In this document: positions 15,062 through 38,218 of the stretch, in pieces | Position numbering within the stretch: the first letter of the stretch is position 1 | How the letters are laid out: each line of letters starts with the position of its first letter | IMG/VR virus record: IMGVR_UViG_3300027135_000004 | Span: 1-47,989 of that record | Length of the DNA stretch: 47,989 bases | Source of the DNA: a virus | Reading direction: 5' to 3' (one strand) | Translations under genes and position numbers: made by a program | The notes under the pieces: model-generated | Databases searched by the model: none | Seen by the model: the letters and a program-made list of their open reading frames with translations, nothing else | What the model was told of the DNA's origin: nothing

Positions 15062-15323
15062 ACATTTTTGTAATTTTGACTACAAGTTTTCCAGAGCCTT
15101 TTATGACTCTGTGATACGTTTCTTTAGGTATAAATATTGAACCCTCCATCAAACACGGAAGATTATTATCCAATTGAACCTCCCAACCACCATTATTCTC
15201 CACAACCTCAACCAAACGGTTTTCTTTATCCAAATGCCACTCTAATTCATGACTATCTATACCAGAATCGAACTCACGAATATATTGATTGTTTCCCAAG
15301 CTTGTCTCTGTATAAGGCATCAT
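15054..15323 (-). CDS. Cupin-like small protein
   Basis: An 89-aa protein with a cupin-type layout: HELEWHLDKENRLVEVVENN (His, Glu, His, Asp in spacing suited to metal binding, residues 25-44), GGWEVQLDNNLPCLMEG and FIPKETYHRVIKGSGKLVVK. Such single-domain cupins are common in tailed phages without an assigned role. Its start overlaps the stop of the kinase gene by 4 nt, so it is translated with it. Binding a metal or a small ligand is plausible; no reaction can be named. Confidence 0.65.
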   Translation of the reverse strand: MMPYTETSLGNNQYIREFDSGIDSHELEWHLDKENRLVEVVENNGGWEVQLDNNLPCLMEGSIFIPKETYHRVIKGSGKLVVKITKMYE

Positions 15324-16117
15324 ACATTTCTAGGACGCATTGGTTCTATTGTCCTCAGATGCGAATCATCGTCATCAGATTGTTCTACACTGTCTACCTT
15401 CTTTACATTTTTATAGTAATTTTCAATCCATTTTCTACCAATTGGATTTTTTATAGGACTCTTCAAAAAGTCAATCACACTTCTCAAAACACCTCTATCA
15501 ATTGGTTCATTGTTCTTTGTTCGATCAACTATTCTAAAGTTGTTACGAAATATGTTTTGAAAATGACCCAAATTATTTTGACAGCTAAACCACATCTGTG
15601 ATAACAAATCTTCTGGTATCTTACGAGATCTCTTCGCATTACGTTCCATTGCAACTTGTAAACTAGTGTTGACAAATATCATGTAACAATCATATCCATG
15701 TTGTTCCATAACACGTTTCTTGATTTGTATTGATTCTATACTATCACCAGTTCCATCTATGATAAGTCCTAATTTAGCCTTTCTATACATGTCTAGTTTT
15801 TTTCTTGTGATTCGTTTTGCTTTTTCTCTAGTAGATTGAGGACCAACAGTCAATCGTTCAAACTCTTCTGGACTCAATTTACTAAAGTCTGTAGATATGT
15901 TCATATTATGAAGCATCTTCTCAAACTCGTTATCACTATTGATTACCTTCAAACCATATCGATTTACAGATGAATTGGAAGGTAAATCAAATAACTCAGT
16001 AGCTACAGTGCTTTTTCCACTACCAGGCCCACCAGCCATAAATATACACTTGAGAGTTGATGGATCATCGACACCCTCGGTCAATCTATGCTTTTTTAGT
16101 AGTTCAAGTAAATTCAT
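15320..16117 (-). CDS. P-loop polynucleotide kinase / zeta-toxin-like kinase with capsid-targeting-type leader
   Basis: A 265-aa P-loop kinase. Walker A is G30-P-G-S-G-K35-S-T37; IDGTG near residue 120 and FVNTSLQVAMERNAKRSRK near residues 148-166 fit the zeta-toxin/polynucleotide-kinase group of small phosphotransferases. The substrate is unknown; 5'-OH RNA or DNA ends are a candidate. The first residues (MNLLELLKKHRLTE then G) contain an L-T-E/G site like those on other proposed cargo proteins, so it may be packed in the prohead and trimmed. It overlaps by 4 nt with the nucleotidyltransferase gene upstream and the cupin downstream. TATTTATA lies 10 nt before its ATG, inside the upstream gene. 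Confidence 0.75.
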   Translation of the reverse strand: MNLLELLKKHRLTEGVDDPSTLKCIFMAGGPGSGKSTVATELFDLPSNSSVNRYGLKVINSDNEFEKMLHNMNISTDFSKLSPEEFERLTVGPQSTREKAKRITRKKLDMYRKAKLGLIIDGTGDSIESIQIKKRVMEQHGYDCYMIFVNTSLQVAMERNAKRSRKIPEDLLSQMWFSCQNNLGHFQNIFRNNFRIVDRTKNNEPIDRGVLRSVIDFLKSPIKNPIGRKWIENYYKNVKKVDSVEQSDDDDSHLRTIEPMRPRNV

Positions 16118-17115
16118 AATGATTTGATATAAATATCAGTGTCTCTCTTCAATTCATCCTCTGGCACATTATCCAAGTTATCACCATACTTCTGTGTCCA
16201 ATATTGTTTGATCTTACCCAACATTGGTCCTGGCTTTAATTGTGGAAAATTAGCCATCAACCACTCACCACCATATTTGGATTTAACTGGGGTAAATGAT
16301 TCAATCTCTTTTTGTTTATCCAACAACATCTGATACTTTTCTGGAAACAACCGCTTCAAGAAATAGTCTGGGTCACTAATCTGTTTGTGTTTATTCAAAC
16401 CAATCAATGACTTTCTAATATAATCAGCACTAGGTCTACCAGCTCTAACTCTCTTACGATCACTGTGATTCATAGTTTGACCCTTATAGTCATCGCTATC
16501 AAACATAGGACTACCACTAATAAACTTAACAACATCATCATTGTTTTGTATACTATCGTAATCACCCAATACATCACCATAACCAAGTATTTTCAAACCG
16601 TCTTTTAGATTCTTAGTAATTAGTATATCGTGATGTCTACCACTTTTATCTACATAAATCTTTTGAAAACCTGTAGTAGCATACTTGTAACCATTTTGTC
16701 TAGCCATTACACCCAATATACCACTAAAGTCTCCTAGTGCTAAATAAGTCTTTTGTGCGTCAAAGTCATCGTCTGTATCCGCATACAGAAAGTCTACATG
16801 AACATCCTTACCCAAATCAGACTTGTAAAGAACACTATAGATATTTCCGTTACGACTATAATCCTTTACCTTATTACCCAAATTAGATAACAACGTGTTC
16901 TTGATATCACCAGACGATCCTGTCAACACAATATCAATATCACCATGATCTTGTTTGGATGGTAGTGATTTACTCAATTCAAACTTGCTAAAACTATTAC
17001 CCAGTTGATTCTTGAGTTCGTCAAAAACACTGTTCATTTCAGATGTAGTAATTCTACTGGCTCTACTACCAAATAGTTTGCCGCCCTCTTTCAATAAATC
17101 CATTAACTTGATCAT
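16114..17115 (-). CDS. Pol-beta-superfamily nucleotidyltransferase with capsid-targeting-type leader
   Basis: A 333-aa protein with nucleotidyltransferase signature SLPSKQDHGDIDIVLTG (Asp pair at about residues 59 and 61) and a likely third carboxylate in VHVDFLY near residue 105. The C-terminal third is helical and ends with a PGPMLGKIKQYW segment, similar in style to the C-terminal domain of tRNA nucleotidyltransferases and poly(A) polymerases. NMP transfer to an RNA 3' end is the leading guess. The N-terminus MIKLMDLLKE-G fits the shared leader and the L-x-E/G protease site. It is directly coupled to the kinase gene, suggesting a joint function. Confidence 0.7.
   Translation of the reverse strand: MIKLMDLLKEGGKLFGSRASRITTSEMNSVFDELKNQLGNSFSKFELSKSLPSKQDHGDIDIVLTGSSGDIKNTLLSNLGNKVKDYSRNGNIYSVLYKSDLGKDVHVDFLYADTDDDFDAQKTYLALGDFSGILGVMARQNGYKYATTGFQKIYVDKSGRHHDILITKNLKDGLKILGYGDVLGDYDSIQNNDDVVKFISGSPMFDSDDYKGQTMNHSDRKRVRAGRPSADYIRKSLIGLNKHKQISDPDYFLKRLFPEKYQMLLDKQKEIESFTPVKSKYGGEWLMANFPQLKPGPMLGKIKQYWTQKYGDNLDNVPEDELKRDTDIYIKSL
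16128..16135 (-). promoter_or_regulatory. TATTTATA leader element
   Basis: 10 nt before the kinase ATG, inside the end of the upstream nucleotidyltransferase gene. Confidence 0.4.
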
Positions 17116-17162
17116 AGACTATAATTAGATCCACACACTCGACTCACTGATGATTTAATCAA

Positions 17163-19343: not shown

Positions 19344-19350
19344 AGTTTAT

Positions 19351-19358
19351 TATAAATA
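19351..19358 (-). promoter_or_regulatory. TATTTATA leader element
   Basis: 7 nt before the ATG of the 726-aa fibre gene. Confidence 0.4.
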
Positions 19359-19399
19359 TTAGAAAATTGCTATGCCCACAGTTAATACTGCGGTTTAAT

Positions 19400-19903
19400 T
19401 TACAATTTGTTATATGTCTTTTCAAACTCAACTTTAGCAATACGATAATAACCAGTATTAGCTGGGTCTTTTACCAAATAATCGCCTGGCTTAATAATCA
19501 TGTCTTCTCCCCATGGAGCTTTAAATGTTACTGGTTCACCTGTATACAAAGCAACTTGTCTTGGAGATTGTTCTGGGTAAATATCACCACCAACATTACC
19601 AGTATATAACTTAGGCAATTTAGCTGCCTTGATAACATAATTCTCACCAGTAGCACCACTGAAAATAATATCACCAACATCAGCAGTGTTTTGTGTTTCT
19701 TTACCATCACTGGTTGTAGTAACTACTGGTTGTTGAATTGTTGACTTGGTATATGTCATTGGAGGCATAGAACCAGGCTTACCTCCGTCAATGTATTTAT
19801 AAACCAACTTTTGTTTGGTCACTGGCTTGAATGCCAATGTGGATGCAATTTGATTGATATCTGCATTAGCAACTTCACTGAGAATGTCTTTTAGTTTAAT
19901 CAT
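19400..19903 (-). CDS. Unknown 167-aa protein with capsid-targeting-type leader
   Basis: The function is not recognised. The N-terminus MIKLKDILSE-V matches the shared leader, with an L-S-E cleavage site. The rest is beta-rich and ends PWGEDMIIKPGDYLVKDPA and YYRIAKVEFEKTYNKL, a pattern I have seen in small phage and bacterial domains without known activity. Its ATG overlaps the stop of the 2H phosphoesterase gene by 4 nt, so the two are probably made together. It may be an internal head protein. Confidence 0.6.
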   Translation of the reverse strand: MIKLKDILSEVANADINQIASTLAFKPVTKQKLVYKYIDGGKPGSMPPMTYTKSTIQQPVVTTTSDGKETQNTADVGDIIFSGATGENYVIKAAKLPKLYTGNVGGDIYPEQSPRQVALYTGEPVTFKAPWGEDMIIKPGDYLVKDPANTGYYRIAKVEFEKTYNKL

Positions 19904-20433
19904 AGGTTTATAAAGTATTTGCCTTTTGGCCCACTATACTTGAATCTGGTAATTGGTAAAGATATATTTAGATTGTCTTTGATGTGTGGAAAGCTACCCT
20001 TCTTCACATAAGCTAATGTCATGTGGGGTTTGTAGTCTGGGTAACCGTCAGTATTTGGATAACCATCACATCTACGTCTCAATTCGGTCAATATAGGACT
20101 TTTTTCAACTTCAAACTTGACCACATCAAATTTATCATTCTCAAACAAATTGAGTGCTTTCAATACCACATTAAATGGCTTTACACCTTGAAGGATTCTA
20201 GCCACATCTGTTCTACCAATATCTGGTTCAAATCCATACTTGAGAGTCACATGAGGTTCTTCATCATAACCATATGTAGGATCATTAGGATCAGTATATA
20301 GTATTTGCGGTGGTATTGCGGTTCTACCAAGTCTAATTACATGTGGTCCATAAGTAGGACTTACATGTGCCATTAAACAACCTTTTTCAACGTGTCTATT
20401 TTCTACGAGTAACATATTTTCTAATAATTTCAC
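19900..20433 (-). CDS. 2H phosphoesterase with capsid-targeting-type leader
   Basis: A 177-aa protein with both hallmarks of the 2H phosphoesterase superfamily: H61-V-T63 in EEPHVTLKYG and H137-M-T139 in YKPHMTLAYV. These enzymes cleave cyclic phosphates or 2'-5' bonds in RNA; the anti-CBASS protein Acb1 of T4 has the same fold and degrades cyclic nucleotide signals. Which substrate applies here cannot be decided from sequence. The N-terminus MKLLENMLLVE-N contains an L-V-E site that fits the cargo leader. It overlaps the 423-aa gene upstream by 38 nt and the 167-aa gene downstream by 4 nt. Confidence 0.75.
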   Translation of the reverse strand: MKLLENMLLVENRHVEKGCLMAHVSPTYGPHVIRLGRTAIPPQILYTDPNDPTYGYDEEPHVTLKYGFEPDIGRTDVARILQGVKPFNVVLKALNLFENDKFDVVKFEVEKSPILTELRRRCDGYPNTDGYPDYKPHMTLAYVKKGSFPHIKDNLNISLPITRFKYSGPKGKYFINL

Positions 20434-21667
20434 GAATCAAATGTTCCTTCTTTACCAATTGGTCCAAAGGCACACCTCTATACTTTTGTCTTAGTTGCGC
20501 AATTGGCATACCATATTGTTTTTCAGCTTGAGCAATCAGATTGTATCTATCTTGTTTCTCTTTTTCTAAAGATGCCAATTTACGAGCAACTACAGTAGCA
20601 ACAGTATTCTTAATGTTATCATTATAATACTTCTCACCCGATACCAAAAGATCATTCAATATTTTAATTTCTACTTCTAACCCATTTACTTCTTTTTCTA
20701 AATTATCCTTTTCAGCAGGCGTAAGTTTCGCTCCTGTTGTATGAAGTTTTCCTCTCTTTTCAATAAACTCTTGTGTCTTATCATCAATTACTTTTTCCAA
20801 ACTAGGTTGTTGTTGTATTTTCGTAAGACCCCAAGAAGGATAATCAAATTCACTACCAACCGGTGTATTGGACAAATCACTATCAGTTACCTTTATTGTT
20901 ACATTATTACCTTTAATAGCCGTAACATCAGCTCTTATACCAAGTCCTAGGATTTTTATTTTGTCACCTACTTTGAATTCAACATCTGCTTTATCCGTAA
21001 CAGATGGTTTAGGTGGAGGAGTTTCTTTCCTAGGTTCTTCTTTGTCATACAGTTCATTGTATGACCTTATTTTGCTACCAATTTCATACAAACACTCAGT
21101 TGGATTATATCCATTAAACTCTATGACTTTTTCATATTGATCTTTGTATGGAATTACCTTATCTTTATTATAATCCCAGAATGTTACAATGATAGCTTTA
21201 CCACTCGGGATTGTGCTTTCAATTTGAAGATCCAAATTTTCTGGCGGTTTACCATCTGTATTGTCTACCTCAAAGATTCTACCTTTCATGATAGGATCTG
21301 AATATGCGCCCATTCTACCCAACCCCTTTAGAATATTTTCCAAATCCAAATGACCACCACCATTATTACTAGCCTTTAATCGTTTGATACCTTTTTGGGC
21401 CCAATAATCCAATTGTTCTCTCTTATTAGAATCATACTTTATTTCCGGAGCGTCTTCTAATTCTTTGATTTCTTTTAATACATCACTATCATCTGAGTAA
21501 AATTCTTTCTTGTTGTCGCTATATCCAAATATTGACTTTTTACCACTCTTGTCGTCTTTATAAACAAAAAAAGCACATCTGTTGGCCGGAGAAGTGTAGT
21601 TATACAACTTTCTCTTGTAACTAACAGTGTCAGGATTTTCCACCAAAATATCAATTAGTTTAACCAT
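20396..21667 (-). CDS. Unknown 423-aa protein with capsid-targeting-type leader
   Basis: Not recognised. The leader MVKLIDILVE-N matches the shared cargo pattern. Residues 15-210 are mixed alpha/beta with many charged residues (GGGHLDLENILKGLGRMGAY near residue 103); a Pro-rich hinge follows at about 213-222 (EEPRKETPPPKPS). Residues 228-285 look like a small SH3/KOW-type beta barrel (FKVGDKIKILGLGIRADVT), and the last 130 residues are a long coiled coil ending in a basic KYVTRRK. The barrel plus basic tail would suit binding to DNA or RNA inside the head. It is coupled with the 2H phosphoesterase gene. Confidence 0.6.
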   Translation of the reverse strand: MVKLIDILVENPDTVSYKRKLYNYTSPANRCAFFVYKDDKSGKKSIFGYSDNKKEFYSDDSDVLKEIKELEDAPEIKYDSNKREQLDYWAQKGIKRLKASNNGGGHLDLENILKGLGRMGAYSDPIMKGRIFEVDNTDGKPPENLDLQIESTIPSGKAIIVTFWDYNKDKVIPYKDQYEKVIEFNGYNPTECLYEIGSKIRSYNELYDKEEPRKETPPPKPSVTDKADVEFKVGDKIKILGLGIRADVTAIKGNNVTIKVTDSDLSNTPVGSEFDYPSWGLTKIQQQPSLEKVIDDKTQEFIEKRGKLHTTGAKLTPAEKDNLEKEVNGLEVEIKILNDLLVSGEKYYNDNIKNTVATVVARKLASLEKEKQDRYNLIAQAEKQYGMPIAQLRQKYRGVPLDQLVKKEHLIREIIRKYVTRRK

Positions 21668-21672
21668 AAATT

Positions 21673-22275
21673 TTACCAGTATTTTCCTTTACCCTTGTTT
21701 CCTAAACTACGAATACGATGACTACGGCAACTCCAGTAACCAGCTGTAGTTCTATCTTTCTTTTGACTACATCTGTGACGTGCGGCAAAACTTTTACGAC
21801 GAGCCTTGTTACCAGCTCTACTTCTCATATTTGGATCACCAAAAGTTACCTTCTTCACATTGCCGTTTTTTGATTTGACATACACGGCGTATTTCTTAGG
21901 GCCGCCTGGAGTTCTGAATGGTCTATTGAGATGAACAGTGCGACCTCTGTGTTTCAACTCCATGATCAAATCTTCTTCGACTTCAATAGGAGCATCCAAA
22001 TAAACCTCTCGACCCTCAAATACTTCCTTCTTACCAAGATCACTTTCGACCAATTCAGCATCTGCATCACACAACTCTATTAGGTTGTCATAATACAATT
22101 TACGAACTTCATCAATTAATTCAAAGTAAGATTCACTGTAGGTTCGAAAAATGTTCTCACACAAAGGTATGTTCTTTGACAAATGATATCGTAAATTGGA
22201 AGTTGTCTCTACTTCTTCCAACAAGTTCATTGAGCAAAGCGAGTCGCTCTCTATCAGGTCGTTAAGCTTGATCAT
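21673..22275 (-). CDS. Basic internal head protein-like, conserved phage C-terminal domain
   Basis: A 200-aa protein whose two halves differ strongly. Residues 10-105 are acidic and helical. The C-terminal 90 residues are very basic and aromatic (GGPKKYAVYVKSKNGNVKKV, FGDPNMRSRAGNKARRKSFA, ARHRCSQKKDRTTAGYWSCR), a domain I recognise from structural or internal proteins of T4-like cyanophages and pelagiphages. The leader MIKLNDLIE-S has an L-I-E/S site. A head-interior protein that binds packaged DNA is a fair reading. TATTTATA lies 4 nt before... the downstream side; its own ATG at 22275 has the element at 22280-22287. Confidence 0.65.
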   Translation of the reverse strand: MIKLNDLIESDSLCSMNLLEEVETTSNLRYHLSKNIPLCENIFRTYSESYFELIDEVRKLYYDNLIELCDADAELVESDLGKKEVFEGREVYLDAPIEVEEDLIMELKHRGRTVHLNRPFRTPGGPKKYAVYVKSKNGNVKKVTFGDPNMRSRAGNKARRKSFAARHRCSQKKDRTTAGYWSCRSHRIRSLGNKGKGKYW

Positions 22276-22279
22276 ATGA

Positions 22280-22287
22280 TATAAATA
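22280..22287 (-). promoter_or_regulatory. TATTTATA leader element
   Basis: 4 nt before the ATG of the basic internal protein gene. Confidence 0.4.
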
Positions 22288-23214: not shown

Positions 23215-23217
23215 ACC

Positions 23218-23225
23218 TATAAATA
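23218..23225 (-). promoter_or_regulatory. TATTTATA leader element
   Basis: 3 nt before the ATG of the lipoprotein gene. Confidence 0.4.
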
Positions 23226-23280
23226 TTGAATCGGTGTATAAAAACTTGTGTATTTCACCACACTCATTTATGATATTAAC

Positions 23281-24054
23281 ATGTCAAAATATTGTGACAC
23301 ATCGCTGATATATCTGAAATCGATCAACAAATCGGTCGCACGTAATTTGATCGAAAAGAACCACTATACACACAAGTGGACCAGTTGTTCTGTAGCATAT
23401 GGTGTGTATACCAAAGATTATGTTGAAAGCACATTCTTTGGAGGATTCGATAGTAGATTGATTGGTGTTCTTGTATATGGTAATGCTGTAGGACGCAATT
23501 CGAGCACTAGTATAACTCCGTTACTAACCAACGATAACGTGTTTGAATTGACCAGATTGTGGATTGAAGACGGTCACGGTAGTAACATAGAAAGTTACTG
23601 TATAGCAGAAAGTTTCAGACTGTTGAATGTGGAGTTTCCTCAAATCAAGTGTATCTTGAGTTATGCTGACAGCGAAGTTGGACATGCCGGAACCATTTAT
23701 CAAGCAACCGGCTTCTTATATCAAGGCGACAATTATGTTGATATCGCATTGATGCCAAATTACAGTGTTAGTTTGGTTGGACCACCCAACTATGATTGGA
23801 TACACAGTAGAAACGTCTATGGTAGATGGAAAACACACAATGTGGACAAACTTAAGGAACGTATAGGAAAAACGTTCTGGCGCAAACGTGAGAGTGGCAA
23901 ACACCGTTATATTAAGTTCATCAGCAACAAGATTGAAAACAAACGGTTGTCAAAGTCACTGATACATAAACTGTTACCCTATCCAAAATCAACATCGTTC
24001 ACAGAACAAATACAAGAAGTTGTAGTGGGTAATAACAACGAGTTTTTCCAATAA
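23281..24054 (+). CDS. Mom-like DNA-modification (GNAT-fold) protein
   Basis: A 257-aa protein on the plus strand, starting at MSKYCDTSL; an ATG 33 nt upstream is less likely. The pattern matches Mom-type proteins: ARNLIEKNHYTHKW near residue 20, LIGVLVYGNAVGRN, FELTRLWIEDGHGSNIESYC and SYADSEVGHAGTIYQATGF near residues 130-150. Mom of phage Mu converts adenines in DNA to a carbamoylmethyl form and so protects the genome from host restriction enzymes. Other GNAT acetyltransferases are the alternative. It is single, opposite to both neighbours, and ends at a hairpin shared with the capsid gene. This arrangement suggests an acquired accessory gene. Confidence 0.75.
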   Translation: MSKYCDTSLIYLKSINKSVARNLIEKNHYTHKWTSCSVAYGVYTKDYVESTFFGGFDSRLIGVLVYGNAVGRNSSTSITPLLTNDNVFELTRLWIEDGHGSNIESYCIAESFRLLNVEFPQIKCILSYADSEVGHAGTIYQATGFLYQGDNYVDIALMPNYSVSLVGPPNYDWIHSRNVYGRWKTHNVDKLKERIGKTFWRKRESGKHRYIKFISNKIENKRLSKSLIHKLLPYPKSTSFTEQIQEVVVGNNNEFFQ

Positions 24055-24084
24055 AAAACCCACCAGCCTTTCGACTGGTGGGTT
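24051..24084 (-). terminator. Rho-independent terminator after the major capsid gene
   Basis: A perfect 10-bp inverted repeat (24057-24066 with 24075-24084) and 8-nt loop. On the minus strand it is followed by TTTTTTATT, so it is strong for the capsid transcript. In the plus direction it follows the Mom-like gene but the T run is poor, so termination there would be weaker. Confidence 0.9.
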
Positions 24085-24110
24085 CGTTATCTAATTTAGA
24101 CTAATCCAAA

Positions 24111-25841
24111 TTATACGGTGTCGAGATCGGCGATCAAGACCTTACCGTAGAACTCAGGACGCACTACCTTCTTAGCGTAGCGAGTCATCACACCACGGCG
24201 TGGAGTGAAGTTCACTGGATCATAGACCAATGGAGTTTGGATGAGTGGGATGTATGGAGCATACACAGCACCAGTCTCCAAGAAGTTGCTACCACGGAAA
24301 CCAACGAGGATAGCATTATCGGTCATGTATGGGTTCTTGTAAACTTGGAAGCGACTTGCGAAGCTACCAACACGGCTTACACCCATTGCGAACTTAGCTT
24401 GGTCACCGTCAGTGTTCACAACATATCCTGGGATTGACTCCAAGATGGTTGCTACGTCTGGCGAACATACCAAGAAGTTTGCGCCACCACGGAGAGTCAA
24501 TTGGTGAATCTTGTTAGAGACCTTTTGGATCTTGTTACCAAGAGTTTGGAACCAAGTGCTCTTTACGTAAGCGGTGCGGTTTGGTGAAGCGTTAACAACA
24601 CGGGTGAACGAAGCCACATCGGTGGTGTTGTTTACAGTCTTGGTGAACTCAGTTCCGATTTGGGCAGACCAAGCTTCGGTAGTTACACCAGTGACAGACT
24701 CGTTCAACATGTCGAGGATTTCGAGGTCGATTTCCATCGAAACATACTCACTCAAGAGAGCAGTAAGTTCTGCTTCTGCATCAATAGAGTGATATGCGTT
24801 CAAGTCTTGAGCCAATTCTGGGGTCCAGACAGCCTTCAACTTACGGGTCTTAGCAACGATTGGTTCGCTCTTAAGTTCCAAGTTGACTTCTGGGATCTTG
24901 ATGTCAGTGCCGATAGATTGGGTATAGACGTTGTTAGCAACACCAGAACCTTCACCAGCGGTCTTACCGTCTTCGAAGTCACCACGGAGGTTGTCCGAAG
25001 GTTGAACTGTGTAGTTCAAACGTGCGGTAGTAGTAGGAGCAGCTGCACCAGCAGATTGACTTACGAACAAGTTAATTTGATAGTATGGGTTTGCCAAGCT
25101 ACCAGTGTTAACTGCGGTTGCGTAAGTGTTCAATACAGTGTAAGCTACACCAGAACTCTTTTGAACACCGAAAGAACGAACTGCGTTCAAGTCAACGTTC
25201 CAGAGGTTACCGGAACCTGGCTTTGCTTCGGTGTTGTCGTCGAGGTTAAAGGTAATCTTGTAGACACCTGGAACTTCGTTAGAACCGTTAACGGAAGCAC
25301 TGAAAGCAGAATCGAATTGTAGATCGTTCCAGCTTGCGGTAGCTACGAGAACAGTTGCGTTTGAGCTAGAGACGGTGCGCTCAGAATAAGCATAGCGTCC
25401 TTGGCCATAGAGACCATTTACAGCAGCATCAGTAGAACCGAGCTTCTTTTGGTTACCACCGAACAAGCTTTCGCCTGCAGTGTGTCCCAATTGAGTGCCG
25501 GAACCATACTTGAAGTCGAGATAGAAGATAAGACCGCTTGGGAGGTTCATTGGTTGAACCGAAACGAACTCCTTAGCAGCGATCTCAGCAAATACACGAC
25601 GGACCAATGGAAGAGCAACGCCTGCCCATTGTTCACTGTTTGCACTTGTTCCAGTTGTTGAAGCTTCGTCCAACAATTGCTTTGCTTGGTTTTCCAAGAG
25701 GATCGACATGTGTGCCTTTTCAACACCGGTGGTGTTTTCGAGAAGGCCTGTCTTTTCCCACTTGTTTTGAAGACCACGGGTTTCAGCCATTAGCTTAGCC
25801 TGTGGATTCATATTATTTGTTAGTAGACTCTTTACGTCCAT
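24111..25841 (-). CDS. Major capsid protein (gp23-like)
   Basis: A 576-aa protein with the order of T4-type gp23. The N-terminal 59 residues are a helical pro-region (MDVKSLLTNNMNPQAKLMAE), and LLDE59-A60 is a clear prohead-protease site. The mature part begins near STTGTSANSEQWAGVALPLV and continues with VRRVFAEIAAKEFVSVQPMN and the gp23-like end PRRGVMTRYAKKVVRPEFYG. Length is close to T4 gp23 (521). It has an AGGAA Shine-Dalgarno site 9 nt before the ATG and its own terminator, and follows the scaffold gene, as in T4. Codon choice is visibly more G/C-ending than in its neighbours, as expected for the most abundant protein. Confidence 0.95.
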   Translation of the reverse strand: MDVKSLLTNNMNPQAKLMAETRGLQNKWEKTGLLENTTGVEKAHMSILLENQAKQLLDEASTTGTSANSEQWAGVALPLVRRVFAEIAAKEFVSVQPMNLPSGLIFYLDFKYGSGTQLGHTAGESLFGGNQKKLGSTDAAVNGLYGQGRYAYSERTVSSSNATVLVATASWNDLQFDSAFSASVNGSNEVPGVYKITFNLDDNTEAKPGSGNLWNVDLNAVRSFGVQKSSGVAYTVLNTYATAVNTGSLANPYYQINLFVSQSAGAAAPTTTARLNYTVQPSDNLRGDFEDGKTAGEGSGVANNVYTQSIGTDIKIPEVNLELKSEPIVAKTRKLKAVWTPELAQDLNAYHSIDAEAELTALLSEYVSMEIDLEILDMLNESVTGVTTEAWSAQIGTEFTKTVNNTTDVASFTRVVNASPNRTAYVKSTWFQTLGNKIQKVSNKIHQLTLRGGANFLVCSPDVATILESIPGYVVNTDGDQAKFAMGVSRVGSFASRFQVYKNPYMTDNAILVGFRGSNFLETGAVYAPYIPLIQTPLVYDPVNFTPRRGVMTRYAKKVVRPEFYGKVLIADLDTV

Positions 25842-25887: not shown

Positions 25888-26985
25888 TTACTTCTTGATT
25901 CCTGCGAGCTTTTGGAATCTTGAAGCCATCACATCAGCTTGAGGTTCTACAATCGTAGAGTCAGGCTTTGTGCTGGATACTGGTTTGCTTGCCAAACCTT
26001 CGGTGATAGTTGAGACAGTCGCATTTGACTTTTTCTTGGCGACTGATCCACCGGCATTAAATGATTCGGCCAAAACTGTGTATGCCAATTTGATTTCACG
26101 CAATGTCTTGGTGAGATCAAATGTGTTGATGACCTTCAACTTTTGGTCTTCGGTCAAATTCTTACCCTTGAAGATCTTGTTGGTATAAAGCAACTTAGCA
26201 TTCAAGAGATTGGTTTCTTCAAGAACACCCTTCAAATACTTCACAGTATCTTGATGTTCCTTCAATTGATTCTTCAATGCTTCGTTTTCTTCATTGATAG
26301 CAACAAGTGCTTCTGCCATTTCTTCAGCAGTCACTTCTTCTTCATAAGTGTCTCCTTCCATTGGGGAAGGAACTTGTCCAGCAACTGGTGCTACTGGAGC
26401 TTGAGGAGCCATAGCGGCAGCTGGTGCTGCTACTGCAGCTGCTGGATCAGCAACTGGGGCAACTGGAGCAGCTGGTGCTTGACCATCTTCTTCCAATTCA
26501 GCGAGAAGTTCGTCAAGATCAACAACTTCTTCTTCAGAAGCTTGTTCTTCTTCAGCTACAACTTCATGCTTCTCTTCCTCTTCTTCCTCACCGTCTTCCT
26601 TCTTACCTTCTTGTTCCAACTCAGCAAGAATCTCATCCAACTCTTCGCTGGTGATTTCTTCGCCTTCTTCAAGAGTTGCGTCGAACTCTTGCTTTCCAGC
26701 TGGAGTGGTGTTTTTCTTTGCTGCAGTAGAAGGTTGGGTTGGGTGTTGCTTAGAAGCAATATTGCTGTCATCCTTACCGATGCCAGAAGATGCAAGCTTC
26801 TCTTCGATCTTGCCTTCTTCTTCCTTACCTTCGTTTTCTTGTTCTGACTCTTCCTTGAGCTTCTCTGCGAACATTTCTTTCATGCTCTTTGCGAAGTTTT
26901 CCTCAAGAAAGGTTTTTGCATTAGCAATTGCAGTTTCACGAACTGCCTTTGCGTCTGCGATGCTTTCCTTTAATAGATCGCTCAT
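25888..26985 (-). CDS. Prohead scaffold/core protein (gp22-like)
   Basis: A 365-aa protein if started at MSDLLKES, which I prefer to an ATG 51 nt upstream because AGGAAAGG lies 10 nt before it. The sequence is highly acidic in the middle (long Glu runs near residues 50-170), contains an Ala/Pro/Val hinge (about 170-205) and ends in a helical domain, the expected composition of a core scaffold that is digested by the prohead protease. Several L-x-E and A-x-E sites are present, the first being LLKE-S at residue 7. It stands directly upstream of the capsid gene, as in T4. Confidence 0.85.
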   Translation of the reverse strand: MSDLLKESIADAKAVRETAIANAKTFLEENFAKSMKEMFAEKLKEESEQENEGKEEEGKIEEKLASSGIGKDDSNIASKQHPTQPSTAAKKNTTPAGKQEFDATLEEGEEITSEELDEILAELEQEGKKEDGEEEEEEKHEVVAEEEQASEEEVVDLDELLAELEEDGQAPAAPVAPVADPAAAVAAPAAAMAPQAPVAPVAGQVPSPMEGDTYEEEVTAEEMAEALVAINEENEALKNQLKEHQDTVKYLKGVLEETNLLNAKLLYTNKIFKGKNLTEDQKLKVINTFDLTKTLREIKLAYTVLAESFNAGGSVAKKKSNATVSTITEGLASKPVSSTKPDSTIVEPQADVMASRFQKLAGIKK

Positions 26986-28260: not shown

Positions 28261-28267
28261 ATCAATC

Positions 28268-28783
28268 TTACTTCTGTGATTGATAAGGTGGTTGTTGATG
28301 TGGTTGTGTAACTGGTTGTGCGCCAGGCATCTCAGAGTTTTCTAAAGCATTGATACTTACTGAGTCTGGTCTACCTTGAACTTGATAAGCTTGTGGAGTT
28401 TCGTTGACTGGATCAGCAATCTCAAAATAACGTTCCAACTTCAAACCAATTTCTTCATAAAGCATTTCAAGAGTATGTTCTACACCCTTAATCTTGTTTG
28501 CTTCTTCATACAATTTAGCAGCAAGTTTCTTGACTTCCTTCATGTCACGTTCGACCATCTTTGCTTCCATCCACTCACCACACTCCTTGATAGCATAACG
28601 TTCAGCCAAATTGACTGCTTCCATAATCTTAGAAGCGGTAGAATATACACAATCAGCTTTGAGACTCTTACGATATTCGTTATAAGCCTTTACTGTTTCA
28701 CGAAGTTTGACCTTCTCTTCTTTTGTAAGAGGAGAATAAGCGGTTTCTGTGGAATTCTCTACTAGATGTCTTAGCTTTATCAT
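28268..28783 (-). CDS. Unknown helical protein with capsid-targeting-type leader
   Basis: A 171-aa protein starting at the ATG of MIKLRHLVE-N; a TTG two codons upstream is less likely, since AATAAATA (plus strand) lies 4 nt before this ATG. The leader ends in L-V-E and matches the shared pattern. The body is one helical bundle (about residues 15-125, rich in Lys, Glu, Ala), then a Gln/Pro-rich tail (QPVTQPHQQPPYQSQK). It lies between the methyltransferase gene and the scaffold region, where T4 has prohead core genes, so an internal head or core protein is likely. Confidence 0.6.
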   Translation of the reverse strand: MIKLRHLVENSTETAYSPLTKEEKVKLRETVKAYNEYRKSLKADCVYSTASKIMEAVNLAERYAIKECGEWMEAKMVERDMKEVKKLAAKLYEEANKIKGVEHTLEMLYEEIGLKLERYFEIADPVNETPQAYQVQGRPDSVSINALENSEMPGAQPVTQPHQQPPYQSQK

Positions 28784-28787
28784 ATAC

Positions 28788-28795: not shown

Positions 28796-28821
28796 TAGTT
28801 AAAATTGTGATTCTGTCTCAA

Positions 28822-29520
28822 TTATTTTCTTATTAATACGCCAAAACCCAAGAAGTCTTCTTTCCAAGGTTTTTGATCTGGCAAATATTGTTGTGTAAAT
28901 TCAATGTAGTCAAATCGAGCATCATTCTTTACCTCATTCCACACATTGACTACACCCAAACCTTTGTGGGAAATATCATGGAATACGATATACTTGGTAT
29001 TTGGATTGTTTTCAAATAGTCTATAATCTGAATAACATCCTTCATATGTATGATCTCCATCAATAAAGACCATATCAATAACAGTATTGTCTACAAACTC
29101 TTTGAACTGTGGAGAACTACTATTTTGTGCCAAATGTGTATAGTTACAATACTGATCATACTCAGTCAATATATCAGACTTTGATGACAGATCACATGAA
29201 AACAACTTGATAGTAGGATTGTTTTTCTTCAATACTTCTGAAACCACGATAAAGTTACCACCCCATCTAACACCAATTTCCAAATATGATTTAACGTTTA
29301 AACTCTGCAACCATTTGATATAAGGTGCGAGTTGAATCGGATATTGCCACACTTTTATACCCTTACCAAAATACTCACTTAAATGTGTGGGTTGTTCTTC
29401 TGTTACTTCATCATTGAGACCAAATGTAGGAATTACGTCTGTCAATTGACCCACTGACAATGTATCAAACTCAGAGTTATGAATAAAATCAATCGTCTCT
29501 TTTAATGATTTGACAGACAT
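28822..29520 (-). CDS. Class I SAM-dependent methyltransferase-like protein
   Basis: A 232-aa protein with the motifs of the Methyltransf_24 / cephalosporin-hydroxylase-like group: YLEIGVRWGGNFIVV (glycine-rich SAM-binding loop, about residue 79), LFSCDLSSKSD for the second strand, and DMVFIDGDHTYEGCYSDY with the metal-binding-like Asp/His cluster. These enzymes methylate small molecules, sugars or capsular components; no substrate is evident here. It has no capsid leader. It lies between the prohead protease and scaffold genes, where T4 has no enzyme gene, so it may be an insertion. Confidence 0.75.
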   Translation of the reverse strand: MSVKSLKETIDFIHNSEFDTLSVGQLTDVIPTFGLNDEVTEEQPTHLSEYFGKGIKVWQYPIQLAPYIKWLQSLNVKSYLEIGVRWGGNFIVVSEVLKKNNPTIKLFSCDLSSKSDILTEYDQYCNYTHLAQNSSSPQFKEFVDNTVIDMVFIDGDHTYEGCYSDYRLFENNPNTKYIVFHDISHKGLGVVNVWNEVKNDARFDYIEFTQQYLPDQKPWKEDFLGFGVLIRK

Positions 29521-29525
29521 ACTAC

Positions 29526-30134
29526 TTACAACTCCGAGATGATATCATGAATGATCTTCTCAATATTAGAATAAGGATTGATGATTCTATTTCCAGAAGG
29601 ATTTACACTTTCAGTGATCTTTCCTTGTGGATACATGAATGCACCTTGAGTAGAAGGATTACTCACAAAATCAAATGCGATCAAGTCAAAATCGTCTTGA
29701 ACCACATCGGCACCCTCTCTCATATCTTTCTTAACACTACCCAAACCACGGCTACTGATACCCAATAGAATACCAGCCTTGAGAAGATCCTTAAGAATGT
29801 TACCACTTGGAGTTGGAAGAATTTCTACAGTTCCAACCAAATCATCACCATCCCAACCCATGTCTACGATGTTATGACTGACATTCTTCAAGTTAACAAC
29901 AGAAGACTCTGGATGGTCAAGTTCACCCATGGCACGACGTTGCTTAACAAAGTTGTCCATGTATTTAGTGGCTTCACGCTCTAAAATTTCTTTTGGATAA
30001 ATTCTACCATTTTGGTTCTTTGCTTCAGCACGTTGTAGTGTGCCGGTCACAAGAAGTTTACCACTACTCAACGATTCGTTAAGTGCGGTCTTTTTGAATT
30101 CAAATGGTAATACGTCAATTAATACTGTTTTCAT
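29526..30134 (-). CDS. Prohead protease (gp21-like)
   Basis: A 202-aa serine protease of the T4 gp21 type (family S78-like fold). The catalytic His is H74 in MGELDHPESS and the Ser is in LGISSRGLG (127-128); a downstream Asp-rich strand (DDFDLIAFDFVSNPS) completes the usual pattern. It digests the scaffold and trims capsid and internal proteins after L/I-x-E. That cleavage preference is known from T4; here it is consistent with LLDE-A in the capsid protein and with the L-x-E ends of the shared leaders. It follows the core-protein gene after 1 nt. Confidence 0.9.
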   Translation of the reverse strand: MKTVLIDVLPFEFKKTALNESLSSGKLLVTGTLQRAEAKNQNGRIYPKEILEREATKYMDNFVKQRRAMGELDHPESSVVNLKNVSHNIVDMGWDGDDLVGTVEILPTPSGNILKDLLKAGILLGISSRGLGSVKKDMREGADVVQDDFDLIAFDFVSNPSTQGAFMYPQGKITESVNPSGNRIINPYSNIEKIIHDIISEL

Positions 30135-30135
30135 A

Positions 30136-31239
30136 TTAAGCTGGTGGGGCTGGTTGTGCCTCAGGTTTTTCTTCTGGTTTAGCTGGTTGTTGTTTTGAAG
30201 TTACAACATTAGATGCTCCAGCAGAAGTTTGTTGTGATGGATCAACCAATGCTTTTGATTTAGCAATTTGATACTTGTCTCTTTGCTTTACATCGGCTGG
30301 TCCCAAAATCTTAATCTTGAATCCAGGCTTTACAAAGAACTTGGCTGCCTTTTGTTTACTTTCTTCACGGCCAAGAATAATGATTACATATCGATCATAA
30401 TAGTAATCAATTTGAACTCCAGTAACATTGATTGTATAATCGGTTTCTGGTTGTTTGTATCCCTTACTAGCACGAACCACAATCTTTTTATTTAAAATTT
30501 GATCTTGAATCTTCTTTTGAAGTTCCAATTTGGTCTGTTCAGTTGCATCCTTCAACTTGGTGTCAAATTGAGTAAAATCTGGTTGAATGTCATATGACTG
30601 AACATTAACAGCTGGTTCCGCTTGTTGAGGAACAGCTTGTTGTTGAGCGGGAGCAGGTTGTTGACCGGCTTCGGCCTCTCTTGTTAGAAACCTAGAAGCA
30701 CGATATCCTTCAATAATCTTCTTTACAGAATTACGTTGTTCTGTAGTTGGAAGAGTTGTTTGTGTCTTGCCTGCCAAACCTGGATCTAATTCTGGATCAC
30801 CATGTTGAACCAACCCATTTTTATCTTTATATGTTGATACTGGTTCAATGTTTTGTGCTGGTGTCACATATGCTGGTTCACTATACATTTGGTTTTCCAA
30901 AGCATATCCAGGACTTTTCTTGACTGGCTTAGCCAACTTAAAACCAAGTTGTGTTGCAGCTCTAACATTTCCAGGCCCTTTACGAGAAAAGGCAAATGGA
31001 GTCATGTAAGCACCCGCAGCACTACTGGTGGATGCTTCATTCTTATTCTTTAATTGGTCCTTGACTTTTTTTTCGACACTTGCTTTCACGGCTGGTGTAA
31101 GCTTATTAGCATGTGCTTGTAGCCACGCATGATATTGCGCCTTATCAATACGTGCCAATTCACTATCACGATACAATTGAGCGTATTTTTTTACAATATC
31201 TCTAAATGGATCGCCTGATTCTTTAAGAAGCTTTTTCAT
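30136..31239 (-). CDS. Prohead core-like protein with capsid-targeting-type leader
   Basis: A 367-aa protein starting at the ATG of MKKLLKE-S; a TTG two codons upstream is less likely. The L-K-E/S site at residue 7 fits the prohead protease. The N-terminal 75 residues are basic and helical, then come AGAYMTPFAFSRKGPGNVRA and long Pro/Gln/Ala-rich linkers (about 180-215 and 335-367) around a small beta-rich domain (residues 215-325, with YYYDRYVIIILGRE). It sits between portal and protease genes, where T4 has the core genes 67 and 68. The role is inferred from position and leader, not from similarity. Confidence 0.65.
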   Translation of the reverse strand: MKKLLKESGDPFRDIVKKYAQLYRDSELARIDKAQYHAWLQAHANKLTPAVKASVEKKVKDQLKNKNEASTSSAAGAYMTPFAFSRKGPGNVRAATQLGFKLAKPVKKSPGYALENQMYSEPAYVTPAQNIEPVSTYKDKNGLVQHGDPELDPGLAGKTQTTLPTTEQRNSVKKIIEGYRASRFLTREAEAGQQPAPAQQQAVPQQAEPAVNVQSYDIQPDFTQFDTKLKDATEQTKLELQKKIQDQILNKKIVVRASKGYKQPETDYTINVTGVQIDYYYDRYVIIILGREESKQKAAKFFVKPGFKIKILGPADVKQRDKYQIAKSKALVDPSQQTSAGASNVVTSKQQPAKPEEKPEAQPAPPA

Positions 31240-32095: not shown

Positions 32096-32107
32096 ATAGT
32101 TCTCTAT

Positions 32108-32120
32108 TATTTATAAATAT
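32108..32120. promoter_or_regulatory. Palindromic TATTTATAAATAT element
   Basis: Contains both TATTTATA and TATAAATA, so either strand presents a T4-late-like box; lies 12 nt upstream of the ATG at 32095. Confidence 0.4.
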
Positions 32121-32150
32121 ATTGAAATTTGGAAAATCATCGGATTTATA

Positions 32151-34139: not shown

Positions 34140-34163
34140 ATAATGCTATCTTATATATAAGTA

Positions 34164-35777: not shown

Positions 35778-36381
35778 ATTCTTTTTCTAAATTGTCAATA
35801 AACGTGTCGATTTCTGACAATCTAGCATTTACATACTCAAGATCCTTCAAAACATCTTGTTTGATCTTATCAAGACCGGTCTCACCCTCCCACTTTTCTA
35901 TAGAACCATCTTCGTTGATAAACTCAAGAGGTTTACCCTCTTTTTCTTCACACCACTTGAGAGTTTCATCAAACTTCTTTTTGTATTCAGACAAAATTGC
36001 TTTCTCATTCTTAAAGTCACGGATCTTGTCAAAGTATTCCCAAGTTCCATCCATCTTCATCTTAGTTTCATTGTTAGTGAAACAGTCATAACACAAATGT
36101 GTCTTGGGCCAAACTTGTGAATCCAAATAGTTACCCCAACGAACGTCGGCACTACATTGCTTACAAATTTGTTTGTTGTCGATTATAACCTTCTTTGGAA
36201 CTCGACGTTTACTACCATTCTTCCAAACCCATTTACGACCTTGACCATCCTCCCACTCTTCACCTTCTTTACGTGTGGCGTTATTTATGTCTTCGGTGTA
36301 ACCAACTTGTATAAATGGTCGATTTCCGTCCAGATAATCTTTTACAATCTCCAGATTGCTTTTGCCTTGTGCTCTTTTCAT
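35734..36381 (-). CDS. Zinc-finger/coiled-coil protein next to terminase, possible small terminase partner
   Basis: A 215-aa protein starting MKRAQGKSNLEIVKDYLDGN. It has two Cys pairs (CKQC and CYDC, about residues 72-98) likely to bind zinc, and a C-terminal coiled coil (about 160-205). I recognise the N-terminal RPFIQVGYTEDIN type from genes just upstream of terminase in T4-like environmental phages. T4 has its small terminase gp16, also coiled coil, at this spot, so a packaging partner is plausible but unproven. The ATG at 36381 is chosen over a TTG two codons upstream. AATAAATA boxes are present on its coding strand before the ATG. Confidence 0.6.
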   Translation of the reverse strand: MKRAQGKSNLEIVKDYLDGNRPFIQVGYTEDINNATRKEGEEWEDGQGRKWVWKNGSKRRVPKKVIIDNKQICKQCSADVRWGNYLDSQVWPKTHLCYDCFTNNETKMKMDGTWEYFDKIRDFKNEKAILSEYKKKFDETLKWCEEKEGKPLEFINEDGSIEKWEGETGLDKIKQDVLKDLEYVNARLSEIDTFIDNLEKEYESAKSKRNNKAGV

Positions 36382-36399
36382 AACCAATATTTATTTATT

Positions 36400-37452
36400 T
36401 TATTTCCCAAAACCACTTTGTAGTCCCTTAATAATGAAACTACCAGTTATTTTAAATGGACTACTGTGAATACTAGGATCTCTGACCACGATTCCTTCGT
36501 GTTTTTCAAGATCACCAATTTCACTAGTAGCATTCTTTAATATTTCATCACCAAGTTTGATTGTTGCCAAATATACAACTGTATCATTGACAACTTTATC
36601 TATATCTTGTCCCTCAAAATCCATAGCAATATTCTTACTAGCAACAGCCTTTTGGAACTGTTCACGGGTAATCAATGGTGTTTGAATATTTACATCTTTT
36701 AACCAATCCTTCAAACTCTTTGTGACTGGATTGCCTTGTGGATACAAAGTAACCTTTTCACCGAGTGGTTTGGAGAGGTTTGGCTTGGTCTTAAACTTGG
36801 TGTCAACACTACCCAATACCTTAAATCCACGTTTCTTAGCAAACACATTCAACTTATTGATATATGATTGCATGACTGTCTTATCATAAGGAATTTCAGT
36901 AGCTACTCTGGATTTGACACTACCATCCTTACCAAACGTCTTGGGTTTGATTTCTTTCAAACCGTGAATTGCCAAGAAGTTACCAATGTCTTCGTAACCC
37001 AAAACATTTGTTTGTCCCTCAACATATTCAACGTTCAACAAAATGTTTGGATTGTTCAACAAACCAAGAGCCTTCAATTCGTTTGTTGTTGATGGAATTG
37101 CATCATCAAAAATTTGAATTACAGTAGAACCAATCTTGATGAATCCATGTTCAGCACCTGTTTCTGGATTTGGTAAAAATCTAGCAGATAGATCTTGTGG
37201 ACGCATTCCCTTGATGTCTAATGGTTTTGCACTACCACGGTCCATCACAAATTCTCCATTAACTAAACGAATACTTGCATTAACACCGTCAATCTTTACA
37301 CTGCCAGTTCCCTTTTCCAAAGAATTAATGGACTTTTGAAAGATATCAACTAGTTGTTTTCCGTTGGATGCAAAGTCAAATGGATGTTCCATGTGGCCAC
37401 CAGCACCACCTTCTCTAAGAACTTCCGACAAAATATTACTCAGCTTTATCAT
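36400..37452 (-). CDS. KxDG-type polynucleotide ligase with capsid-targeting-type leader
   Basis: A 350-aa protein of the covalent nucleotidyltransferase superfamily (DNA/RNA ligases and capping enzymes). Motif I is V-K53-I-D55-G56-VNASIRL, K53 being the expected adenylated Lys; motif III is in the NILLNVEYVEGQ region; motif IV is H-E319-G-I-V-V-R; motif V is the Lys pair in FKITGSFIIKG (334 and 342). No separate OB-fold domain is obvious, which is more like RNA ligases. The leader MIKLSNILSE, followed by VLRE-G, offers two L-x-E sites. It overlaps the flavodoxin-like gene by 17 nt. An RNA- or DNA-end sealing role is likely; the substrate is not shown. Confidence 0.75.
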   Translation of the reverse strand: MIKLSNILSEVLREGGAGGHMEHPFDFASNGKQLVDIFQKSINSLEKGTGSVKIDGVNASIRLVNGEFVMDRGSAKPLDIKGMRPQDLSARFLPNPETGAEHGFIKIGSTVIQIFDDAIPSTTNELKALGLLNNPNILLNVEYVEGQTNVLGYEDIGNFLAIHGLKEIKPKTFGKDGSVKSRVATEIPYDKTVMQSYINKLNVFAKKRGFKVLGSVDTKFKTKPNLSKPLGEKVTLYPQGNPVTKSLKDWLKDVNIQTPLITREQFQKAVASKNIAMDFEGQDIDKVVNDTVVYLATIKLGDEILKNATSEIGDLEKHEGIVVRDPSIHSSPFKITGSFIIKGLQSGFGK

Positions 37453-38218
37453 ATGGTTTAATAAATGTTTTTTCGAATGTAGATACGCCTTTTAAGTATG
37501 AACGTTTGGTTTCATCAAGGGCATCATCTGTAAATTGCCAATTCCAAAACAATTGGTCTGGTGTCTTGAATCCAAAAAATTCAAGAACACTCTTTTGTGT
37601 TTGAACAACGTGTTTACCATTCCAGTTCTGACCAACAGCAATAAATCCAGCATCAATATCTTTAACTAGATTGGACTCACCCAAAGTCGAGTGTCTATTT
37701 TCAATCCAAGTCAAACGTTCAATCAACTTTTGATAATAACCGTTGGCTTGACCCCATCTGACACTTGCAAAAAATAATACACAATCACTCTCAAACAACT
37801 CCTTACTGATCTTCCAAAGTTCGTCACCCTTCTCATTTACACTAGCCCAACAACGATGATGACCACTTGGATTTTGTTCTTTGTTTTTCAATAAAGCACC
37901 AATCGTTCCACAATGGTTGCCACCAAACTCTTTGTTGCTACTCACATTACCTTCACATGGAACGATGTGTAGTTTTGTTGTGTCAATCAATGTTACTTTT
38001 TCTTTGCCAAGCAACTCTTGAATTTTAATGGCTAACTGACTGCTTTTTGGAACATCGTCTTTATGTTGAGACCAACGATTACTTGTAGTCAATAGTAACA
38101 CTTTGTTTTTACTACGCAAATAATCCATGGTCTTCTTGTATTTTTTAGCATACAAGTCCATGTCTTGTTCACTTGCTGGCAATTTAGCCTCTGTTAGAAG
38201 GTCTGATAGACTAATCAT
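37436..38218 (-). CDS. Flavodoxin-fold NAD(P)H-dependent FMN reductase-like protein with capsid-targeting-type leader
   Basis: A 260-aa protein. After the leader MISLSDLLTE-A (a perfect L-T-E/A site) comes a flavodoxin-like core: VLLLTTSNRWSQHKDDVPKS (FMN phosphate loop, about residue 40), IQELLGKEKVTLIDTTKLHI, and CVLFFASVRWGQANGYYQKL with IERLTWIENRH, the flavin-contact region of NADPH-dependent FMN reductases. Such proteins reduce flavins or quinones. Finding one with an internal-protein-type leader is unusual. It is the first gene of the head cluster after the sheath terminator, with TATTTATA 4 nt before its ATG. Confidence 0.7.
   Translation of the reverse strand: MISLSDLLTEAKLPASEQDMDLYAKKYKKTMDYLRSKNKVLLLTTSNRWSQHKDDVPKSSQLAIKIQELLGKEKVTLIDTTKLHIVPCEGNVSSNKEFGGNHCGTIGALLKNKEQNPSGHHRCWASVNEKGDELWKISKELFESDCVLFFASVRWGQANGYYQKLIERLTWIENRHSTLGESNLVKDIDAGFIAVGQNWNGKHVVQTQKSVLEFFGFKTPDQLFWNWQFTDDALDETKRSYLKGVSTFEKTFIKPYDKAE

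Follow-up and report, generated by a model that had tools for sequence, protein, structure and literature searches.

Short leaders resembling T4 capsid targeting sequences on unrelated proteins of a T4-like phage and its relatives

We analyzed a stretch of viral DNA of 47,989 bases (IMG/VR record IMGVR_UViG_3300027135_000004; the whole stretch is called the window), which holds a T4-type head and tail gene set including terminase, portal, scaffold, capsid protein, and a gp21-type prohead protease, and in which ten otherwise unrelated proteins start with short leaders ending in L-x-E or I-x-E. These leaders are in all probability capsid targeting sequences of the T4 internal-protein type that are trimmed by gp21, the mature bodies then probably being injected. 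The tags exceed chance, keep their site in most assessable families, are joined modularly to different bodies, and keep company with gp21 and scaffold genes; from this pattern we infer a binding partner, cleavage, packaging in the window phage, and injection. The window capsid protein is ∼51% identical to those of Microcystis phage Mel-JY01, its top match, and Flavobacterium phage immuto, and 37% identical to that of Rhodothermus phage RM378. The genes concerned are listed below, with a slash marking a predicted cut here and throughout.

37436..38218, minus strand: flavodoxin-like protein (so named in an earlier sequence-only reading; fold not confirmed), leader MISLSDLLTE at 38189-38218
36400..37452, minus strand: putative RNA/DNA ligase-fold protein with a KxDG motif, leader to E14 at 37411-37452
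30136..31239, minus strand: prohead core-like protein, leader MKKLLKE at 31219-31239, strongly variable in homologues
29526..30134, minus strand: gp21-type prohead protease, Peptidase_S77 (Pfam PF03420 above cut-off, E 5.8e-33)
28268..28783, minus strand: conserved head/core protein (171 aa), leader MIKLRHLVE at 28757-28783
25888..26985, minus strand: scaffold, N terminus MSDLLKE/S (26965-26985), C terminus SRFQKLAGIKK (25888-25923)
24111..25841, minus strand: major capsid protein, predicted cut LLDE59/A60
21673..22275, minus strand: basic protein, leader MIKLNDLIE at 22249-22275, site often not conserved
20396..21667, minus strand: 423-aa protein, leader MVKLIDILVE at 21638-21667
19900..20433, minus strand: 2H phosphoesterase, GTG start, leader (M)KLLENMLLVE at 20401-20433
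19400..19903, minus strand: 167-aa protein, leader MIKLKDILSE at 19874-19903
16114..17115, minus strand: nucleotidyltransferase, DNA-polymerase-like, leader MIKLMDLLKE at 17086-17115
15320..16117, minus strand: P-loop kinase (AAA_33/zeta-like), leader MNLLELLKKHRLTE at 16076-16117

All ten leaders noticed in the sequence-only reading were found at the named genes, on the minus strand and each ending in [LI]-x-E, and the capsid sequence LLDE59-A60 and the scaffold start MSDLLKE-S also read as claimed. The description of the starts as nearly the same suits seven of the ten, whereas MKKLLKE, MKLLENMLLVE, and MNLLELLKKHRLTE are alike only in the L-x-E end. The tagged genes do lie in the head region, at 15.3-38.2 kb, but the same block holds untagged terminase, portal, and tail-fibre-like genes. 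Phage immuto carries a few leaders outside its head block (gp003, gp230, and gp231), and the window enzymes encoded at 6176-6967, 7596-8756, and 14394-14933 lack a leader, though relatives of each carry one.

A strict leader rule was defined as Glu at residue 8-14, Leu or Ile two residues before it, a hydrophobic residue five or six before it, and no Pro or Gly. Eight of the 43 window genes, called for this analysis, satisfied the rule (seven of the ten plus 28822-29520), and 5000 within-protein shuffles of residues 2-40 gave a mean of 0.89 and a maximum of 6. The controls were stretches of T7, N4, crAss001, and SPO1, phages that are not known to encode gp21; the rule was satisfied by 9 of their 238 genes (Fisher p 0.0014 against the window). 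We also fetched 160 relative loci, some of which share contigs, by way of the capsid protein and terminase. Among 510 of their proteins, nonredundant at ∼80% identity, 78 satisfied the rule (p 7e-7 against the controls), a count that includes many members of the same families because nonredundancy was set only at that level. Replacing Glu by Gln in the rule gave 11, and requiring a residue other than Leu or Ile at the position two before it gave 27. The rule found 20 of 214 proteins in immuto and 5 of 53 in RM378; in a T4 stretch it found 6 of 65, namely ipII, ipIII, gp24, gp2, lysozyme e, and e.6. The T4 DNA-end protector gp2 (16061-16885 of locus L175) starts MAIFQIINE/STPQ. Such leaders might in principle reflect chance or a recent duplication of gene starts, as the motif is short and the MIKL words are alike. 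At the residues that seven of the leaders share, the codons agree in 31 pairs and differ in 62, with 37.7 agreements expected from codon usage, which indicates that the leaders are not recent DNA copies but reflect protein-level selection or separate origin. On the basis of the shuffles, the control phages, the differing codons, and the 40 body families described below, we rejected this explanation, which now seems hardly credible.

Conservation of the terminal Glu was examined by counting distinct homologous N termini with [LI]xE and the Glu at residues 7-18. The site was present in 14 of 16 such N termini for the flavodoxin-like protein (in the other two the gene call starts too early and the leader lies deeper inside), 33 of 36 for the 28268 protein, 11 of 12 for the ligase-like protein, 2 of 2 for the nucleotidyltransferase, and 1 of 1 each for the kinase, the 423-aa protein, and the 167-aa protein, the last two of which have one non-identical homologue. 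Within the flavodoxin-like family, M1, L4, D6, L8, and E10 are invariant in 12 aligned sequences, window included. The ligase site had been placed at E10, a position that was not borne out: across 13 aligned sequences, window included, chosen from 53 homologues, E10 varies whereas E14 (LRE/GG) is invariant together with the following Gly residues, so the cut is better placed at E14, where it probably occurs. The leader around the Glu changes in both length and sequence. The nucleotidyltransferase starts MIKLMDLLKE/GGKLFGSRA in the window and with the 17-residue leader MIKLTDILQQSVIKLTE/GGKLFGSRA elsewhere, so that the junction is LKE/GGKLFG in the former and LTE/GGKLFG in the latter. The kinase junction E/G[VL]xD reads LTE/GVDD in the window, MIPFILKE/GLYD in HTVC008M, and MKTFAELQE/GVYD in Melnitz, and an IMG/VR kinase relative starts MIKLMDLLNE/GVND. 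Protein gp053 of the Agrobacterium jumbo phage Atu_ph07 has a part that we take, from its YRGM motif, to be ART-like joined to a kinase, and an internal V-x-E site, VTE/GVND, sits between the two in a polyprotein-like arrangement. The 2H leader requires a GTG start at 20433; in the two nearest non-identical homologues with the region (L012 and L013) there is no ATG, GTG, or TTG at that place and an inner ATG gives MLINE/N. The 2H family was left out of the site count because the leader there would need an unusual start codon or is just MLINE. The Glu, well conserved in the flavodoxin-like, ligase-like, 28268, kinase, and nucleotidyltransferase families and kept in several of them as the surrounding leader varies, is the probable cut site; homologues of the 423-aa and 167-aa proteins are too few to judge by. 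Several core-like proteins, including that encoded at 30136-31239 and its relatives, also share a recurring E-[AM]-[ST]-[ST]-T-G stretch that begins at Glu and ends in T-P-F-A-F-S.

The leader also appears to be gained or lost at the junction. The 2H protein of locus L087 begins MNRHVEKG, with stop codons just upstream, at the point where the window reads LLVE/NRHVEKG. The untagged HAD-like window protein (14394-14933) starts MTKKLRVFDFDDTL, and its relative in L347 starts MIKLKDLLLE/KKLRVFDFDDTL; the untagged genes at 7596-8756 and 6176-6967 have tagged relatives starting MIKLKELLE/EVESDKYTIYCDLDGV (L397) and MRLLTNFIVKTILNE/DKNKKTTAVYGGGFKP (L349), respectively. These are single cases read by hand; an automated comparison of starts was too noisy, the motif mostly being no true leader and the partner aligning across it. 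Such junctions give good support to a modular tag. The untagged cytidylyltransferase-like protein at 6176-6967 (minus strand) has a leader-like segment, KIKALIKKIMTE/DN, near its C terminus.

Scanning IMG/VR for MIK[LF]xD[LF][LF]xE returned at least 119 stretches, compared with 49 in all for a control pattern ending in Lys. Among the matches listed, 80 loci were read, in which 79 of 86 pattern matches were starts of open reading frames of at least 40 aa; the tagged bodies fell into 40 families at BLAST E 1e-3, a level at which more distant kinship is possible, the largest having 16 members and being led by P-loop kinases. The likeness of these leaders follows from the search pattern, and the start position and body variety are independent of it. 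For the Lys control, 30 of the 49 stretches were open reading frame starts, 10 of which were 9-residue leaders ending in Glu (MIKLxDLLE/K). Judging from these sequences, the tagged bodies in many related aquatic phages include enzymes (RNA-ligase-like, kinase, 2H phosphoesterase, and polymerase-like nucleotidyltransferase), and ART-PolyVal bodies occur elsewhere. The expectation that tagged genes always accompany a gp21-type protease held as an enrichment rather than as a rule: among contigs of 30 kb or more, 17 of 28 with leaders yielded a gp21, compared with 6 of 19 from the Lys control (p 0.047), or 2 of 12 after removal of the 9-residue leaders (p 0.012). None of the records in the two sets is annotated as 90% complete or more.

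The leaders match what has been described for T4, in which the first 10 residues of IPIII suffice for head entry, residues 4 and 7 contribute to targeting and residues 8 and 10 to processing, gp21 cleaves after L/I-x-E, and core proteins are also cut by gp21 (excerpts of PMC9026906). Hydrophobic residues at 4, 7, and 8 with Glu at 10 occur exactly in five window leaders (flavodoxin-like, ligase to E10, 423 aa, 167 aa, and nucleotidyltransferase), the register of T4 ipII/ipIII MKTYQEFIAE/A, and the likeness to T4 internal-protein leaders drawn in the sequence-only reading is thus confirmed for these; the remaining five, with lengths of 7, 9, 9, 11, and 14, are off that register. T4 IPI, IPII, IPIII, and Alt likewise combine a short N-terminal leader of this kind and a gp21 cut with unrelated mature bodies (excerpts of PMC9026906 and PMC12373910). 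The sequences differ (MIKLxDLLxE in the window, MKTYQEFIAE in T4), several bodies here are enzymes, and many body families occur across IMG/VR. Ip1-3 of T4, which have only the leader in common, inhibit restriction enzymes once injected; for T-even phages in all, at least 10 Ips are reported (excerpts of PMC12373910), whereas the window phage alone has ∼8 candidates. The capsid targeting sequence has been proposed as a route by which T4-like phages take up varied proteins, and many head and ejection proteins of phiKZ and SPN3US carry propeptides cut after Glu by a gp21-like protease; in phiKZ, however, the site is S/A-x-E, and the excerpted text describes no common short tag there (PMC9026906).

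Published virion data exist for more distant phages. The virion proteome of cyanophage S-SM1 includes the putative cytidylyltransferase T4-GC190 (excerpts of PMC3037559); this protein, SSM1_190, starts MKKFSAFLNE/AERS, in the exact T4 register. For Atu_ph07, 29 of the 46 proteins of coding sequences (CDS) 31-76 were detected in virions by mass spectrometry (excerpts of PMC6102473). We read 132 Atu_ph07 genes, taking CDS numbers as gp numbers and leaving out the two other clusters of that paper. In this block-level comparison, [LI]xE with Glu at 7-14 occurs in 20 of 46 proteins of CDS 31-76 and 9 of 86 of CDS 1-30 and 77-132 (p 2.3e-5). A run of eleven consecutive leader genes, gp053-gp063, is seen in Atu_ph07 (L172/L173): the first ten begin with M[RK]W-x-x-L-x-E, and the last begins with MRLFQLLE. 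The excerpted texts of PMC3037559 and PMC6102473 draw no link between virion proteins and a leader. The earlier proposal of packing and trimming is well supported by site conservation, gain and loss, the T4 register, and these virion data from distant phages.

Several results weigh against targeting and gp21 trimming as the explanation. We found no virion data for the window phage or near relatives, and the excerpts of the S-SM1 and Atu_ph07 mass spectrometry papers report no cut N termini (PMC3037559, PMC6102473). The site is missing in 4 of 13 homologous N termini of the 30136 protein (present in 9) and in 8 of 19 of the 21673 protein (present in 11), with Asp or other residues replacing Glu in several members of both families. 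L-x-E is short, as the nine hits among the control genes illustrate; with Asp or Lys in place of Glu the strict rule still returned 34 and 42 of the 510 relatives' proteins, strict leaders are scarce in Mel-JY01 (1 of 40, 0-50 kb) and HTVC008M (2 of 51), and in T4 the rule flags lysozyme e and e.6 yet misses ipI. Eleven of the 28 leader contigs, all of them fragments, yielded no gp21. Other motifs are also raised at N termini: among 681 proteins of at least 100 aa from the relatives, immuto, Mel-JY01, RM378, and the window, [LI]xxE occurred 122 times versus 63, [LI]xK 115 versus 68, and Ex[LI] 97 versus 59. These last counts bear on the idea that the leader is an N-terminal helix addressing the protein to a replication site, the membrane, or a chaperone, with L-x-E a by-product of helix composition, since N termini are generally rich in Leu, Ile, and Lys. 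In the same set, 152 proteins had [LI]xE at residues 7-14 against an average of 73 over eight downstream intervals, the Glu position peaked at residues 9 (30) and 10 (36), and x-E after residues other than Leu or Ile was depleted; the [LI]xxE excess nearly equals that of [LI]xE, but LL-x-E leaders feed into it. A helix for another address is improbable given that the Glu persists in leaders that otherwise vary, that the Glu pattern so outnumbers the Lys control in IMG/VR, that leader contigs are associated with gp21, and that a tagged S-SM1 enzyme is reported in virions (excerpts of PMC3037559).

We therefore favor capsid targeting, which could work as follows. The short amphipathic N-terminal segment would bind the prohead core or scaffold during head assembly, so that any body behind it becomes enclosed in the prohead; gp21 would then cut after L/I-x-E and free the mature protein inside the shell. 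As a modular tag, the leader could be joined to many unrelated genes, in the window largely those for nucleic-acid enzymes, and the cargo would probably be injected with the genome and act before any phage gene is expressed. An alternative is that all the tagged proteins are core or assembly factors that enter by the leader, help to build the head, and are degraded or expelled, none being injected. The proteins at 28268 and 30136 fit this description in that they adjoin gp21 and recur with it through the clade, and gp21 cleaves core proteins in T4 as well (excerpts of PMC9026906); these two are probably prohead core rather than injected cargo, as judged from their distribution. Extended to all tagged proteins the alternative is unlikely, for several bodies are recognizable enzymes (kinase, 2H, and ligase fold), the bodies are many and different, and the kinase, nucleotidyltransferase, and 2H protein have few homologues, 2 to 6 in 160 relatives.

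Identities of the candidate cargo were sought by profile and predicted structure. The ligase-like protein has motif I KxDG, with K53-x-D55-G56 invariant. By title, the 50 listed second-look matches to its predicted fold are nucleic-acid ligases, headed by T4 Rnl1 (Z 8.4, root-mean-square deviation 5.1, 185 aligned), although a Z of such size can be unspecific; the best Foldseek E was just 0.038, and Pfam RNA_ligase, at E 0.057, was below its cut-off. Because the fold matches and KxDG coincide, the model makes an RNA or DNA ligase the likely class for 36400-37452; residues 1-19, including the leader, were not confidently placed (predicted local distance difference test, pLDDT, below 50). A search of its profile against solved structures by sequence gave only weak ribonuclease H rows, and the same search with the flavodoxin-like profile, whose model is poor (pLDDT 54), gave no match. 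Searches by tblastn among isolated phages found no relative of either protein; Mel-JY01 has a distant ligase-like stretch with 25% identity. The kinase matches the AAA_33 and zeta-toxin families, the 2H protein matches the 2'-5' RNA ligase superfamily (Acb1 falling under its cut-off), and the nucleotidyltransferase matches a phage family named DNA polymerase. A trio of ligase, kinase, and 2H phosphoesterase resembles the fungal tRNA ligase Trl1 and the T4 Pnkp/Rnl1 repair system. On the analogy of this trio, the ART-PolyVal bodies, and the precedent of injected T4 Ip1-3, one may guess, but no more than guess, that the cargo forms an injected kit for end repair and counter-defence.

A second leader, MKKQILSEEFxRMQKLAGI, which repeats the scaffold C terminus, was seen in relatives, an isolated Flavobacterium phage among them, but is not used on cargo in the window. 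Scaffolds end alike (SRFQKLAGIKK in the window, SRWQKLAGIIK in immuto, ERMKKLAGIVK in Mel-JY01, and ERIKRLAGL in RM378, the last scaffold being assigned here by gene place), and two immuto proteins start MKKQILSEQF[RK]RMQ[KF]LAGIITES. An MQKLAGI scan returned at least 120 stretches; the 80 loci read held 82 matches, 64 at the very C terminus, 13 N-terminal, and 5 elsewhere (two of them chance-like). Short capsid-protein motifs lay within the following 1.5 kb in 41 of 54 C-terminal cases with at least 700 bases beyond, a count made with no chance control, as expected of a scaffold gene. The pattern MKKQ-x-[LF]-x-E-[EQ]-F matched 60 times in a total of 54 stretches, and 45 of these matches are distinct over the first 30 residues. 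All 60 continue into [RK]M-x-x-[LIM]-A-[GD], 50 with MQKLAG, neither being in the search pattern; 55 of the 60 are open reading frame starts, the 56 proteins fall into 33 body families, and gp21 was found in 11 of 20 contigs. One 160,908-base record holds both a scaffold end, ERMQKLAGIKK, and cargo starting MKKQILSEEFKRMQKLAGI. Read plainly, such cargo would pose as scaffold. MQKLAGI-x-x-E tags were also noticed inside or near the C terminus of non-scaffold proteins (L196, L199, and L219). In engineered P22-type encapsulation, cargo fused to a scaffold segment enters the prohead. Entry through a copied scaffold segment would be alike here, but the arrangement is natural and N-terminal, and the segment repeats a T4-like scaffold C terminus. 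The resemblance of the scaffold N terminus to leaders of the first type is only suggestive: when 21 scaffold rows were ranked among 833 proteins for leader likeness, 13 stood at 77-123 and six at 239 or lower. We tentatively raise the possibility, on which we would not insist, of a two-word code for capsid import in T4-like phages of sea and freshwater, with xDLLxE/ (scaffold N terminus MSDLLKE/S) and LSE[EQ]F-x-RMQKLAGI-x-x-E (scaffold C terminus RMQKLAGIIK) as its words; cargo would pose as scaffold and be freed by gp21, and an injected repair and defence-evasion kit (RNA ligase, kinase, 2H phosphoesterase, polymerase-like enzyme, and ADP-ribosyltransferases) would be active before the first phage transcript.

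T-even phages already offer examples of one leader shared by unrelated injected proteins; the enzyme cargo, the wide spread, and the scaffold-copying tag appear to be new, and in the open-access papers that we searched, some of them read in excerpt, we saw no account of enzyme families with such a leader in aquatic T4-like phages or of a scaffold-C-terminus tag. With a tag readable from sequence alone, candidate capsid cargo could be named across many uncultured phages, and numerous hypothetical proteins would gain a functional class, namely packed and probably injected. The scaffold-copying tag suggests a concrete answer to how a tag is recognized, and the enzyme cargo suggests that phages carry nucleic-acid repair tools into the cell with their DNA, besides restriction inhibitors.

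Two further features of the window concern the surroundings of these genes. At 23281-24054, on the plus strand, opposite to the head genes and adjoining the capsid gene, lies a gene for a Mom-type DNA modification protein (PF25680, E 2.9e-42). A search for a TATAAATA late promoter on the coding strand turned up a different repeated box, TATTTAT, which lies 11-32 bases before many starts on that strand (38218, 28783, 22275, 16117, and structural genes), tagged and structural alike, and may be the late promoter of this phage group.

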